Made by a program: the position numbers and the translations under genes. From Pseudomonas sp. Q2-TVG4-2 (lineage in GTDB: Bacteria; Pseudomonadota; Gammaproteobacteria; Pseudomonadales; Pseudomonadaceae), in the NCBI RefSeq assembly GCF_013620795.1, contig NZ_LGLW01000004.1, positions 186,001 to 250,000 of the forward strand: a DNA stretch of 64,000 nt. The letters are read 5' to 3'. Below the pieces are notes generated by a model. The model was not told the DNA's origin. It did not search any database and saw only the letters and a list, made by a program, of their open reading frames with translations. This document shows positions 51,459 to 60,508 of this stretch, one piece after another; position 1 is the stretch's first letter; each line of letters starts with the position of its first letter.

Positions 51459-52115
51459 ATGACTCCCCACCTGCCCATCGAGCTGGAACAGACCGAGCTC
51501 TGGCTGCTCGCCGAGAAGGCCATCTACTGGCCCGCACAGCAGGCGCTATTGATCGCCGACATCCATTTCGGCAAGGCCGCCGCCTACCGTCGCCTTGGCC
51601 AACCCGTGCCCCACGGTACTACCCAGGCCAACCTGCAGCGGCTCGATGCCCTGCTCGCCCGTTACCGCTGCGGGCAGCTGATCTTCCTCGGCGACTTCCT
51701 GCACGCGCCGGAGTCGCAGGCGCCCGCCACGCTCAGCCAGCTGCATGACTGGCGCGCCACCCACGCCAATCTGGCGATCACCCTGATCCGTGGCAACCAC
51801 GACCGCCGAGCCGGCGATCCGCCCGCCAGCCTTGGGATGAACGTCGTCCCCGAGCCGCTGCTGCTCGGCCCTTTTGCTCTGCAGCATGAACCCGATCCGC
51901 ACCCCAGCCACCATGTCCTTGCCGGCCATCTGCATCCCGCTTTTCGACTCAGCGGCCGCGGACGGCAGAGCCTGCGCCTGCCCTGCTTCTGCATTGGCGA
52001 GCGCATGAGCCTGCTGCCAGCCTTCGGCGGCTTCACCGGCATGATGGAAGTCGACGCCGACCCGGGTCGGCGTCTGTACGTGGTTGGGGATAACAGCGTG
52101 TGGCGGGTGGCTTGA
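51459..52115 (+). CDS. pdeM: Ligase-associated metallophosphoesterase PdeM
   Basis: Binuclear-metal phosphoesterase of the calcineurin-like family; the Pseudomonas member hydrolyses phosphodiesters and nucleic acid ends with Mn2+. The 218-residue product shows the five-block signature: LIADIHFGKA, GDFLHAP, RGNHDRRAG, and AGHLHPAF plus the C-terminal FGGFTG. It closes the four-gene repair group. Confidence 0.93.
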   Translation: MTPHLPIELEQTELWLLAEKAIYWPAQQALLIADIHFGKAAAYRRLGQPVPHGTTQANLQRLDALLARYRCGQLIFLGDFLHAPESQAPATLSQLHDWRATHANLAITLIRGNHDRRAGDPPASLGMNVVPEPLLLGPFALQHEPDPHPSHHVLAGHLHPAFRLSGRGRQSLRLPCFCIGERMSLLPAFGGFTGMMEVDADPGRRLYVVGDNSVWRVA

Positions 52116-52119
52116 TCGA

Positions 52120-52353
52120 TCAGGCCTGGGAGATGCCGGTGACGGTGATACCGAAGCGTTCGGCCAGGCGAGTGGCCGGTGTTTCCTCGACATCCGGGTC
52201 ATGCTCGTACGCATCCTCCTCTCCGGCATAGTCGCGTTCGGCCTTTTGCGTTACCAGCGCTACTGCCTCATCTATATCCGGCTGGCGATCGGATTCGGTC
52301 CTGAGAATGGATGTGTTGCCGTCTTTGCTGTACGCGATAATCCAGGTCGTCAT
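52120..52353 (-). CDS. Small acidic protein of unknown function
   Basis: The 77-residue product is acidic, begins MTTWIIAYSKDGNTSILRTE and ends RFGITVTGISQA. An AGGGGG precedes the ATG. No domain is recognised. Convergent with pdeM, four bases apart. The opposing plus-strand open frame of similar length looks less natural in composition. Confidence 0.6.
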   Translation of the reverse strand: MTTWIIAYSKDGNTSILRTESDRQPDIDEAVALVTQKAERDYAGEEDAYEHDPDVEETPATRLAERFGITVTGISQA

Positions 52354-52537
52354 TGATGCCCCCTTTTTCTAGCGCCTTCGGCTAAGTCGCTCGCCGAGAT
52401 TGGCGTCGCTCTGTTTAGAGACTAGCCCGTCGCATTCAGTTCTGCCGCTTACGCTTGATCGGACGACCTGCTGAACGGTCTGAACAGGGCTCTGGGACGC
52501 AGGTCATCGGTAGAGATGAGGACAGGAGGTAAAGGCC

Positions 52538-53869
52538 ATGATTGGTTCACGCCCACGATCCACCGAGATTCCCGAGGAACAGCTGGTCAAGCGGCTACGC
52601 CACCATGCGACGCCGCTTCCGGCCATCGACGACCCGGCCTTTGCCGAGCACTTCGATCAGTTCGGCGATGCGACAGTGGTGCTGATCGGTGAGGCCAGCC
52701 ACGGGACGTCGGAGTTCTACCGCGCCCGGGCGCAAATTACCCGACGACTGGTCGAGCACCACGGCTTCAATATCATCGCTGCAGAAGCGGATTGGCCGGA
52801 TGCAACGAAAATCGATTGTTACGTACGTCACCAACAGCCCCCAACCTGGGTCGAAGAAGGCTTCAAGCGCTTCCCGACCTGGATGTGGCGCAATCAGGAA
52901 GTCGCTGATTTCGCCGCCTGGCTACGCAATCACAACGAGGCGTTGGGGCCCGAGCAACGGGTTGAGTTTCGTGGGCTGGACGTCTACAGCCTCGGCTCGT
53001 CGATACGGGAAGTGCTGGAATATCTCGATGCCGTCGACCCGCAAGCCGCCAGCGCCGCGCGTCGTCGCTACGGCTGCCTCAGCCCATGGCACGAGGAACC
53101 GGCCATCTATGGTCACAAGGTAATGCTTGGCGAGCCGTCCTGCGAAGACGCCGTAATCGAGCAGCTGCGAGCGCTGCTCGATCAGCGGCTGGAATACCTG
53201 GAGCGAGACGGCGGCAGCTTCTTCAACGCCGAGCGCAACGCCCGTGTGGTACTCGCCGCGGAACACTATTACCGGGCCATGTATCAGGGCTCGGCAGAAT
53301 CCTGGAACCTGCGCGACCGGCACATGTTCGACACCCTTCGCGCCCTGCTGGAACACCGCGGCGAAAACGCCAAGGCAGTCGTATGGGCGCACAATTCGCA
53401 CATCGGTAATGCGGCATCCACCTCCATGGGCTGGGGTGGAGAATTCAATATCGGCGAGCTGTGCCGTACCGCCTTTGGCAACGACGCGGTGCTGATCGGC
53501 ATGGCCACCGATCGGGGCGAAGTTGCGGCTGCCGATAATTGGGATGAGCCGATGCAGATCAAGCAGGTTCGCCCATCGCGTCCGGACAGCTGGGAGCAGT
53601 TGTTCCTGCGTACCGGTATCGCGGCGTCGCTGACCACCTGGCGCGACGATGCCTCATTACGTCAGGCGCTGGCCAGACCCCGTCTGGAACGGGCGATTGG
53701 GGTTATCTACCGCCCAGCTACCGAGCGGCAAAGTCACTATTTCCAGGCCATACTGTCCGAACAATTCGATGCTTTGATCTGGCTGGAACAGACCACTGCA
53801 GTCACGCCAATCGGCCCGCAGCAGATCGACGACCAGATCGTTCCGGATACCTACCCATTCGGAGAGTAA
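52538..53869 (+). CDS. Erythromycin esterase family protein
   Basis: EreA/EreB-like fold. The 443-residue product has the catalytic-type motifs LIGEASHGTSEFYRAR (His~53), AAEADWPDATKID, and VVWAHNSHIGNAAS. A perfect AGGAGGT lies nine bases upstream of the ATG. No signal peptide. The real substrate is unlikely to be a macrolide in most chromosomal members of this family. Three bases separate it from the phosphoribosyltransferase, a recurring pair in bacteria. Confidence 0.9.
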   Translation: MIGSRPRSTEIPEEQLVKRLRHHATPLPAIDDPAFAEHFDQFGDATVVLIGEASHGTSEFYRARAQITRRLVEHHGFNIIAAEADWPDATKIDCYVRHQQPPTWVEEGFKRFPTWMWRNQEVADFAAWLRNHNEALGPEQRVEFRGLDVYSLGSSIREVLEYLDAVDPQAASAARRRYGCLSPWHEEPAIYGHKVMLGEPSCEDAVIEQLRALLDQRLEYLERDGGSFFNAERNARVVLAAEHYYRAMYQGSAESWNLRDRHMFDTLRALLEHRGENAKAVVWAHNSHIGNAASTSMGWGGEFNIGELCRTAFGNDAVLIGMATDRGEVAAADNWDEPMQIKQVRPSRPDSWEQLFLRTGIAASLTTWRDDASLRQALARPRLERAIGVIYRPATERQSHYFQAILSEQFDALIWLEQTTAVTPIGPQQIDDQIVPDTYPFGE

Positions 53870-53872
53870 GTC

Positions 53873-54556
53873 ATGCGTGCGTTCATGCCTGAATCCTATC
53901 TATTCCGCGACCGCAGCCATGCAGGCCAGGAACTGGCCGAAGCGCTGCAACACCTGGCCGACTTGAAGCCGTTGGTGCTGGCCTTGCCACGTGGCGGCGT
54001 CCCCGTTGCCTTCGAGGTAGCGCACCGGCTGAATGCCCCGCTCGATCTGGTCCTGGTGCGCAAGATCGGCGCGCCCGGCAACGAAGAGCTGGCACTGGGC
54101 GCGGTGATCGACGGCGCCGAGCCGAAGTGGGTGATCAATCAGGAGCTGATCAACCAGATCGCACCGCCGCCGAACTGGTTCGAGGAGGAAATGCAGCGCC
54201 AGTTGGCCGAATTGGAACGTCGCCGGCAACGTTACTGTGGCGGCCGGCCTGCGCCGGTGCTCAACGACCGCTGCGTGATCGTGATCGACGATGGTGTCGC
54301 CACGGGTGCGACGGTCAGGGCGGCATTGAAGGGATTGAAGCAATCGAACCCGAGCAAAATCGTGCTCGCCGTACCGGTCGGTCCGCGCGCAGAGATGGAG
54401 ATGTTGAGATCGGAAGTGGACGAATTGGTCTGTCTGGCAATGCCCGAGCCGTTCATTGGCGTCGGACGCCATTACGGAGATTTCGATCAGACGAACGACG
54501 AGCAGGTCATCGACCTGCTCGATCGGGCTCAGACTTTCACAAACGCGCCGCTATAG
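53873..54556 (+). CDS. Phosphoribosyltransferase family protein
   Basis: Type I PRTase fold, 227 residues. The PRPP loop VIVIDDGVATGATVRAAL (~138-155) and the flap LVRKIGAPGNEELALGAV are visible; no specific base substrate can be named. GGAGAG lies six bases upstream of the ATG, which matches the start chosen (an internal ATG four codons on is the alternative). Co-transcribed with the erythromycin-esterase-like gene. Confidence 0.9.
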   Translation: MRAFMPESYLFRDRSHAGQELAEALQHLADLKPLVLALPRGGVPVAFEVAHRLNAPLDLVLVRKIGAPGNEELALGAVIDGAEPKWVINQELINQIAPPPNWFEEEMQRQLAELERRRQRYCGGRPAPVLNDRCVIVIDDGVATGATVRAALKGLKQSNPSKIVLAVPVGPRAEMEMLRSEVDELVCLAMPEPFIGVGRHYGDFDQTNDEQVIDLLDRAQTFTNAPL

Positions 54557-54564
54557 CGCGTGAT

Positions 54565-54714
54565 TCAGGCGACCGGCGCTGGCGGTGGCTGGTCCGGAAT
54601 GGTCGGCTCGCCGGGTTCACTCGGTAGATCCGGCACGCCCGGCTCCTCCGGGTCGCCCGGGACGCCCTGGGCCTGCCAACTGAGCGTCTCGTCCGAATAA
54701 GGGATGGTTTCCAT
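54565..54714 (-). CDS. Small proline-rich acidic protein
   Basis: Translating the minus strand from ATG 54714 gives 49 residues: METIPYSDETLSWQAQG, then repeated PG-D/E/P units and a PPPAPVA end. AGGAGG is placed eight bases upstream, a near-perfect Shine-Dalgarno, so translation is likely. It is acidic and Pro/Gly/Glu-rich with no hydrophobic helix, predicted disordered. Convergent with the phosphoribosyltransferase, nine bases from its stop. Similar 40-60-residue proteins are scattered in pseudomonads without known function. Confidence 0.55.
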   Translation of the reverse strand: METIPYSDETLSWQAQGVPGDPEEPGVPDLPSEPGEPTIPDQPPPAPVA

Positions 54715-54821
54715 GTCGCTGTCCTCCTGCTGTAACCGGAAAGCCCGGATTGGCTATAGCAGTAGAGGCTCTATGGCCGGCAGAAATCCGTCCTTTTGTC
54801 GGCGTGGCGGCAGCTGACAGC

Positions 54822-54847
54822 GGATCGCCAGCAAGCCGGCTCCTACA
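54822..54847 (-). repeat. REP element
   Basis: ggatcgccagcaagccggct followed by cctaca in the 175-bp gap between the small proline-rich gene and the DUF2058 gene; one arm mismatch. Confidence 0.75.
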
Positions 54848-54889
54848 AAAGCGAAGGAGCCGTGGCGGGAGGCATGTCGGAAACAGCCC

Positions 54890-55429
54890 TTACCACATCA
54901 GATCGTCAGGAATCTGGTAAGCGGCGTAGGGATCATCCGCGTCCGGGGCTTCGGTCTGAATATTGAGCTGGACGATACGGCGCGGATCACGCTCCTGAAT
55001 CTTGAGCGCCGCCTCACGCGGGATCACTTCGTAACTGCCACCGTGCCGGACGATGGCCAGCGAGCCGCTGGACAGCTTGTCGCGCATCAGCGTGTTCACC
55101 GACACGCGCTTGACCTTCTTGTCGTCGACGAAGTTGTAATAATCCTCGGTGGTCAGCTTGGGCAGACGGCTTGTTTCGATCAGCTGTTTGATCTGCGCAG
55201 CGCGTGCCTTCTGCTCGGCCTTTTCCTGCTGCTGACGGTTCAGCTCCTGGTCGCGGGCGAGCTTCTCGGCCTGAGCCTTGAGTGCCGCTTCACGTTGAGA
55301 ATCATCCTTTTCGGCCTGGCCTTTTTTCACCAGACGCTGTTGTTTCTGCTGCTGCTTGCCGGCCTGCTTGGCCTGCTTCTCATTGACCAGCCCTGCTTTG
55401 AGCAGCTGATCACGAAGGGAAAGACTCAT
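54890..55429 (-). CDS. DUF2058 (YaiL) family protein
   Basis: The 179-residue nucleoprotein-like product begins MSLSLRDQLLKAGLVNEKQ, is Lys/Gln-rich and coiled coil in its first 80 residues (KQAGKQQQKQQRLVKKGQAE), and ends in the DUF2058 domain with IVRHGGSYEVIPREAALKI and YQIPDDLMW. Strong AGGAG-like sequence is not obvious. Function unknown; the family is annotated as nucleoid-associated or nucleoprotein/polynucleotide-associated in Enterobacteria. Confidence 0.88.
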   Translation of the reverse strand: MSLSLRDQLLKAGLVNEKQAKQAGKQQQKQQRLVKKGQAEKDDSQREAALKAQAEKLARDQELNRQQQEKAEQKARAAQIKQLIETSRLPKLTTEDYYNFVDDKKVKRVSVNTLMRDKLSSGSLAIVRHGGSYEVIPREAALKIQERDPRRIVQLNIQTEAPDADDPYAAYQIPDDLMW

Positions 55430-59152: not shown

Positions 59153-60508
59153 CTAAACCGACCGCTCGAAGAGGGCCATCGCCTCGACGTGCGCCGTTTG
59201 CGGAAACATGTCCAGCACCCCGGCCCGCTTTAGTTCATACCCCTGGCGGACCAGCTCGGCCGCATCACGCGCCAGCGTCGCAGGATTGCATGAAACATAG
59301 ACCACGCGCCTTGCGCCTAAAGTCGCCATCTGCCGAACCAGTTCTAACGCGCCGTCACGCGGTGGATCCAGCAGCACAGCAGCGAAACCGCCTTCGGCCC
59401 ATTGCGCCTCAGCCAGCGGCTTCGACAGGTCCGCCTGATGAAAGTGCGCATTCACCAGACCGTTGCGCGCCGCATTGGTGCGGGCCCGCTCGACCATCTC
59501 ATCAACACCCTCCACCGCCACGACTTGCGCGCCCTGCCGCGCCAGCGGCAGCGCGAAGTTGCCGAGGCCACAGAACAAATCCAGCACCCGCTCGCCCGCT
59601 TCCGGTGCGAGCCAATCCAGCGCCTGCGCCACCATCGCCTCGTTCACCGGTGCGTTGATCTGGATGAAATCACCCGGTCGCCAGGCCAGCTCGAGATCCC
59701 AGGCAGGCAAGCGATAGCCCAGTGCATAGGCGGCGTCCAGCGGTTGCGGCGGGCCTTCGCCCTGCAGCCAGAGCTGCACGCCCTGCGCCTGGGCAAAGGT
59801 TGTTAGCCGCTGCAGATCCGCCTCGGCCAGCGCGGCCGTATGGCGAACGAGCACCGCGTCGGCGGTGCCGCTGAACAACTCCACATGACCGATCGCCTGC
59901 GGCTTGTCCAGCGCATGCAATACGGACAGCAAAGCCGGCAACAACGCCTGCAAGGGCTGTACCAGCACATGGCATTCACTGATCGAAACGATGTCCTGGC
60001 TGGCGCCGGCGCGGAAGCCTACGTCCAGCCGCCGCGCCTTGTTATCCCAGCGCACCGCCAACCTGGCGCGGCGGCGATAGCCGAACTCGGGCCCGCTCAA
60101 CGGCGGCGCCCAGACCTGTGGTTCGATACCCGCCAGCCGCGACAACTGCTCGGCGAGGCTGCGCTGCTTGAGCGCCAGCTGATCGGCAGCCGACAAGTGC
60201 TGCAGGTTGCAGCCGCCGCAAACGCGCGCATGCGGACATGGCTCCATGCGGCGTTGCGCGCTCGCAGCCAGCACCCGCTCACTGCGCGCCTCGACGATCT
60301 GACTGCGCGCGCCCATAACCCGCGCATCGACCTCTTCGCCCGGCAAGGCGCCGTCGACGAACCAGGTACGTCCATCAACGAAGGCAATACCACGACCGTC
60401 GTTGGCCAGGCGCTCGACGCTCAGACGTTGCTTTTTGCCGGTCGGGATCTGAGGCTTTTTCTCGCCGCCGCTGGGCTGGAAGCGCAAACCGCCGCTGCGT
60501 TTGGCCAT
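59153..60508 (-). CDS. rlmD: 23S rRNA (uracil-1939-C5)-methyltransferase
   Basis: SAM-dependent 5-methyluridine enzyme. The 451-residue product has a TRAM domain, [4Fe-4S] ligand cysteines in [17 protein letters not shown], the SAM motif [16 protein letters not shown] and the catalytic cysteine in [19 protein letters not shown] start at 60508. Same-strand as cysM, 30 bases apart; the cysM-rlmD-relA-mazG order is typical of pseudomonads. Confidence 0.95.

Follow-up and report, generated by a model that had tools for sequence, protein, structure and literature searches.

The two adjacent genes described here, which code for an EreA-like hydrolase and a type I phosphoribosyltransferase (PRT), may represent the two-gene form of a widespread maintenance module in which a PRT, a dienelactone-hydrolase-like (DLH-like) alpha/beta hydrolase and an EreA-like hydrolase would serve one pathway not concerned with macrolides, a reading to which we give about an even chance. 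Both proteins may be active, act on one common substrate and have a maintenance role. Elsewhere, relatives of the two proteins are fused together or are joined to a third hydrolase or a protein-repair enzyme, which points to a shared maintenance chemistry and not to antibiotic resistance. If correct, this reading would provide a physiological role for a family known for antibiotic resistance, as well as a pointer to the function of a dormancy-regulon gene. An earlier note on this DNA had described an operon-like and recurrent pair, sometimes fused, that does not resemble a resistance locus in its context, and this description stands. It had missed the DLH-like partner, the triple PRT-hydrolase-Ere fusion and a branch fused to protein-L-isoaspartate methyltransferase (PCMT), all of which emerged from the survey of fusions and neighbours that it had proposed.

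The window, i.e., the whole 64,000-nucleotide stretch analysed (G000:C34:186001-250000), lies within a 4.47-Mb assembly of a Stutzerimonas-like host, and the closest hydrolases in the hydrolase tree are from Stutzerimonas. On the + strand, the hydrolase ORF extends from an ATG at 52538 to a stop codon at 53869 (443 aa) and is followed by the transferase ORF, from an ATG at 53873 to a stop codon at 54556 (227 aa). The two genes are three bases apart (53870-53872), as previously claimed, in an operon-like layout. The hydrolase gene is preceded by a strong Shine-Dalgarno sequence, AGGAGGT (52524..52530, +), located 7 nt 5' of its ATG, whereas the transferase gene has a Shine-Dalgarno-like GGAG core (53861..53864, +) within the 3' end of the hydrolase gene; the statement that both genes have strong ribosome binding sites is thus half right, because this second site is only moderate. 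A ligase-associated helicase gene and a PdeM gene are present 5' of the pair, and a DUF2058 gene and genes that, judged by their sequence, are probably MazG-like and RelA-like lie 3' of it on the opposite strand. A scan of positions 52050-55000 for sigma-70-type promoters found none.

With regard to the transferase, a PF00156 match (52.7 bits, E 4e-14, Pfam cut-off 26.3) and a DDGxATGxT motif assign it at the sequence level to the type I PRTs, and more precisely to the TT1426/1WD5 subfamily. The predicted PRPP-binding motif, DDGVATGAT, was located by alignment at residues 139-147 (54287..54313, +), and the DDGxATG pattern is present in 76 of 80 PRT-profile segments. The predicted model of the protein (mean pLDDT 94.8) has as its nearest solved structure TT1426 from Thermus thermophilus (1wd5; Z 28.1, rmsd 2.4, 45% identity over 208 aligned residues), deposited as a hypothetical protein. 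The remaining structure matches, with Z scores of at most 13.3, include purine, uracil and xanthine PRTs, PyrR and PRPP synthases.

The hydrolase matches PF05139 over the full length of the profile (448.1 bits, E 4.6e-134, residues 72-419, profile positions 1-358 of 358) and above the Pfam gathering score; this is the only domain of the 443-aa ORF, in which no N-terminal PCMT domain was found. Its AlphaFold model, obtained with 21 relatives as input (mean pLDDT 88.7), is structurally closest to two Bacillus cereus proteins for which passages of PMC7979712 report an esterase activity that was shown or assumed, namely, BcR136 (2QGM; Z 42.5, rmsd 2.9, 384 residues aligned) and BcR135 (3B55/2RAD; Z 40.9, rmsd 3.2 and 399 residues for 3b55), but the identity in these structural alignments is 19-21%. 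The erythromycin esterase EreC (6xcs) follows with a Z score of 32.9 (rmsd 3.7, 378 residues aligned, 17% identity). The catalytic set given for EreC in passages of the same source, E47, H50, E78, R261 and H289, aligns (the EreC number being taken as the chain number minus 20, by our own reckoning from H50) with E52, H55, E83, R259 and H288 of the window hydrolase, and these five residues are identical across all 110 aligned relatives. On the + strand, the corresponding codons are located at 52691..52702 for E52 to H55, which form a GEASH motif, 52784..52786 for E83, 53312..53314 for R259 and 53399..53401 for H288. The window protein therefore shares with EreA, EreB, EreC and EreD the fold and the five catalytic residues, but its bit scores with the EreB, EreD and EreA models (47.1, 37.9 and 22.5) are far under the curated NCBIfam cut-offs of 750, 800 and 750, respectively, and it stands in a non-resistance context. 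With its catalytic set intact and such low scores, it can be regarded as an EreA-fold hydrolase outside the resistance families.

The association between the two proteins was surveyed in 299 evenly drawn Pseudomonadota genomes, with thresholds of E ≤ 1e-20 for the hydrolase, found in 29 of them, and E ≤ 1e-10 for the transferase, found in 36. A PRT is present in 20 of the 29 genomes having the hydrolase versus 16 of the 270 lacking it (Fisher 6e-15, a value not corrected for kinship), and the pairing thus recurs beyond chance. Among the 30 hydrolase loci of this survey, 9 have a PRT at less than 1.3 kb, 14 are PCMT-fused, one is accompanied by an alpha/beta hydrolase alone, and 6 have no partner. 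In the same survey, a PRT was detected in 13/15 non-PCMT versus 7/14 PCMT-fused hydrolase genomes (p 0.05). An additional set of 32 genomes gave a PRT elsewhere in the genome for 10/15 lone-hydrolase versus 4/16 PCMT-fused cases (Fisher p 0.03), the 32nd genome (L139) having its PRT 204 bases from the hydrolase; the PCMT branch thus does without a PRT in many genomes. In Gemmatimonadota, 18 of 61 genomes possess the hydrolase, and the 15 loci classified, which cover 15 of 19 matches, comprise six that have a PRT close by (in one case encoded on the opposite strand and truncated at the edge of the locus), two PCMT fusions, one with an alpha/beta hydrolase alone and six with none. The earlier claim that the pair recurs in bacteria, sometimes as a fusion, is borne out by its presence in Pseudomonadota, Gemmatimonadota and Deinococcota, and by a PRT-Ere fusion in Actinomycetota. 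Finally, the distances among paired PRTs and among their hydrolases correlate (Mantel r 0.76 for 42 pairs, near-copies L006 and L007 being left out; 0 of 2000 permutations as high), although a species history in common can by itself yield such a correlation.

The gene architectures were analysed in 80 named loci from GTDB genomes by six-frame reading with profiles built in this work, the PCMT profile being derived from 15 clean rows. Besides Ere-PRT operons, these loci include Ere-alpha/beta hydrolase-PRT operons, which are common in sphingomonads, and the DLH-like alpha/beta hydrolase proved to be a frequent third partner beside hydrolase and PRT. All three domains are found in a single ORF, in the order PRT-alpha/beta hydrolase-Ere, on four contigs, with a length of about 890-900 aa in the two that were scanned, and this single-chain form occurs in some Rhodobacterales. 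The PCMT-Ere ORFs have about 660 aa; Pfam and NCBIfam confirmed the domains in representative fusions. A complete Salipiger plasmid carries a triple fusion as a gene of 2652 bases (L163:5980-8631), so that this architecture is no artefact of metagenome assembly. This Salipiger gene is annotated merely as an alpha/beta family hydrolase. A Rhodococcus plasmid harbours a PRT-Ere fusion of 682 aa adjoining universal stress protein (USP) genes, the pair is present in reversed order in Deinococcus taeanensis, and in Nostoc and Salinigranum the PRT adjoins the alpha/beta hydrolase but Ere is missing. Overall, the 110 hydrolase rows comprise 36 with a PCMT fusion, 24 with a PRT, 17 with an alpha/beta hydrolase and a PRT, 4 triple fusions, one with an alpha/beta hydrolase alone and 28 with none. 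By the adjacency of its genes, the window pair is a member of what we name here the PRT-hydrolase-Ere module, and its optional DLH-like part is missing, no match to the DLH profile being found in the surrounding 19.9 kb.

The proposed module would serve to maintain metabolites or macromolecules, be cytosolic and consist of a TT1426-type PRT, an optional DLH-like alpha/beta hydrolase and a metal-independent EreA-like hydrolase. In the latter, as in the mechanism put forward for EreC, H55, held by E52, would activate water together with E83, H288 and R259, and the enzyme would open a carboxyl ester, a lactone or a similar bond. The PRT, to which PRPP or a 5-phosphoribosyl group would bind, would either make the compound used by the hydrolase or handle its product. 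The EreA-like core would receive from its partner domains, which make or select it, a carboxyl ester, a lactone or a cyclic imide; the opened compound would be phosphoribosylated in the PRT branch, and the substrate would be an isoaspartyl methyl ester or a succinimide in the PCMT branch. As two unrelated partners are found on one core, its activity may be a general one that the partner directs. We consider it unlikely that, more specifically, a phosphoribosyl or some other carboxyl ester is what the hydrolase cleaves. With this partner set, a question that was vague can be addressed by defined assays, as the PCMT-Ere chain holds the probable upstream enzyme of its own hydrolase.

The two genes may instead catalyse different reactions and stay together for shared transcription in hypoxia or stationary-phase regulons, a possibility that we take seriously but consider doubtful. 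In Mycobacterium tuberculosis, hspX, acg and Rv2030c are regulated by DosR, according to passages of PMC3110807, and USP, Hsp20, CBS or BON genes are found at some hydrolase loci. When 19.9-kb regions of the surveyed genomes were screened for eight stress-associated families, 15 of 27 hydrolase-centred versus 7 of 22 arbitrary regions had one or more of them (p 0.15, not significant) and 6/27 versus 0/22 had two or more, in a comparison biased toward a positive result because the profiles derive from genes flanking other Ere loci. However, the 19.9-kb region of the window pair has no matches to any of the eight families, USP, Hsp20, CBS and BON included, and the triple PRT-hydrolase-Ere fusions suggest more than co-regulation. 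An FNR-type site (TTGATNNNNATCAA, at most two mismatches) was not found between 49168 and 53548. Over the whole window (1-64000), 34 such TTGATNNNNATCAA sites with at most two mismatches were counted versus 13.9 expected from shuffles, an excess perhaps due to codon usage. With regard to Rv2030c, the deletion strain is described in passages of PMC3110807 as 'identical to the parent', its sensitivity to NO, H2O2 and acid not being raised. The previously suggested role in nucleotide-derivative or stress metabolism is thus not established, and the stress part stays conjectural, given the weak enrichment of such neighbours, their absence at the window and the lack of a phenotype of the Rv2030c deletion.

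Another reading, which we hold rather improbable, is that the EreA-like core repairs carboxyl groups by hydrolysing or ring-opening activated carboxyls of proteins or peptides, i.e., isoaspartyl methyl esters or succinimides supplied by the fused methyltransferase in PCMT fusions, and a phosphoribosyl or related carboxylate ester when associated with a PRT. It draws on the PCMT fusions as the second large hydrolase branch (36 of the 110 rows). In the two fusions scanned, the NCBIfam model TIGR00080 for protein-L-isoaspartate methyltransferases (PIMTs; cut-off 159) matches the PCMT domain with 216.7 and 202.0 bits, a (G/E/S)QT(I/M)SQP motif occurs in 31 of 37 PCMT segments, the best solved relatives of the domain by sequence are the PIMTs 1jg1 and 3lbf, and some PCMT-Ere genes are already labelled protein-L-isoaspartate methyltransferase in public annotation. 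In addition, alignment indicates that the catalytic residues are common to both hydrolase branches. Yet a separate Pcm scoring above the curated cut-off is present in 13 of the 14 PCMT-fused survey genomes, so that the fused domain is usually an extra copy, and the use of a PRT by the other branch is left unexplained. A related version, in which the EreA-like protein edits carboxyl groups in general under the direction of its partner, would have interchangeable PCMT or PRT partners (with or without the alpha/beta hydrolase) make or recognise activated carboxyls on aged proteins or metabolites, and the core open the ester or cyclic imide; we think it quite improbable. If true, this editing would be a repair step that either follows PIMT or runs in parallel with it, and the resistance esterases would be offshoots of a repair family. 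In the hydrolase tree, from which L003 (identical to the window) and the plasmid loci L158 and L159 were left out, the PCMT and PRT groups form largely separate branches. A domain swap, suggested by triple fusions nested in the PCMT branch of a quick tree, is not claimed, because their grouping with the PRT branch was not rejected by an AU test (p 0.33). The initial idea that N-terminal extensions of about 220 aa are PRTs was rejected as well; most proved on reading to be PCMTs, with which Pfam and NCBIfam agree in the two fusions scanned. Unlike these fused forms, Pcm is neither fused nor adjacent to the pair in the window. A weak PF01135 match (26.7 bits, 59429-59638, -) is located inside the ORF 59153-60508. 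The sole PCMT-profile match in the 19.9-kb region of the pair is probably this one and thus no Pcm partner of the pair.

That the hydrolase acts on macrolides or other antibiotics, as a chromosomal resistance or self-protection gene, is very improbable. Its fold and catalytic residues are those of EreC, but the model scores and the 17% identity given above place it far from the resistance enzymes, the window copy lies between the PdeM gene and the DUF2058 and housekeeping genes, and elsewhere it is associated with PRT, alpha/beta hydrolase or PCMT and not with resistance genes. Model scores and context thus argue for rejecting macrolide resistance, in agreement with the earlier view that neither gene looks like resistance in context. 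A function in exopolysaccharide synthesis is hardly credible either, since the name 'succinoglycan biosynthesis protein' of 2qgm and 3b55/2rad, the nearest structures by sequence profile and fold, is a depositors' label and no polysaccharide genes are present among the identified neighbours of the pair.

Returning to the PRT/DLH-like/EreA-like maintenance module, co-occurrence of hydrolase and PRT exceeds chance in the survey, but the idea that the pair is co-inherited holds in part only. The genome containing the window has a second hydrolase, 65% identical to the first, with no PRT beside it. This lone paralog (L229, G000:C1:18400-38300) has two universal stress protein matches within its 19.9-kb region, unlike the window pair. 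Furthermore, the Stutzerimonas species S. degradans, S. kunmingensis and S. xanthomarina have kept the hydrolase, after which the PRT is cleanly missing, and each possesses, elsewhere in its genome, a less closely related PRT (44-46% identity) with an alpha/beta hydrolase after it. In the PRT tree, which leaves out the duplicates L038, L040, L041, L061 and L171 and segments below 120 bits, shorter than 180 aa or containing stops, the label 'next to Ere' changes at least nine times, at the starred branches. Hydrolase and PRT are therefore not strictly co-inherited. This paralog and these three species, together with the six partnerless loci among 30 and the independence of the PCMT branch from the PRT, speak against the module, as do the non-significant enrichment of stress-gene neighbours, with none near the window pair, and the Rv2030c deletion that gave no phenotype.

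In the searchable literature, the Ere-PRT combination appears solely as annotation or domain assignment, and the earlier statement that the chemistry of the pair is not established thus still applies. Passages of PMC4410610 assign to M. tuberculosis Rv2030c a PRT domain and the erythromycin esterase superfamily in one protein, a likeness to the window pair at the level of the reported description. The 682-aa Rhodococcus fusion looks to be of this kind. Rv2030c differs from the window pair in being fused and hypoxia-regulated beside hspX, whereas the window has two genes and no stress neighbours. The Deinococcus deserti genes Deide_2p00990 (erythromycin esterase, 444) and Deide_2p01000 (phosphoribosyltransferase, 227), listed with consecutive numbers in part of PMC2669436, code for proteins whose lengths are nearly those of the window pair; the D. 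taeanensis pair differs from the latter in having the transferase first. No description of PCMT-Ere or PRT-hydrolase-Ere fusions was found in the openly licensed literature searched, including portions of PMC8939145, which is weak evidence that these fusions are novel. The Burkholderia lxa locus, which had been considered as a place where such genes might reside, was set aside, the lxa papers searched making no mention of an erythromycin esterase.

Several minor features surround the pair. A divergent gene of 77 aa (52120-52353, -) is conserved in 11 of 81 neighbourhoods and is preceded on its strand by GAACTG-N17-TCTAAA at 52414-52442, which resembles AlgU/ECF sigma promoters; the pattern used in the search matches nowhere else in the window. 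The TTAG and AGTTC blocks near 52414-52442 are invariant across ten aligned upstream regions. On the other side, the interval that separates the transferase gene from the DUF2058 gene in Stutzerimonas holds a family of Pro/Gly-rich short ORFs (73-78 aa, four loci clustered; about 54567-54717, -, in the window).
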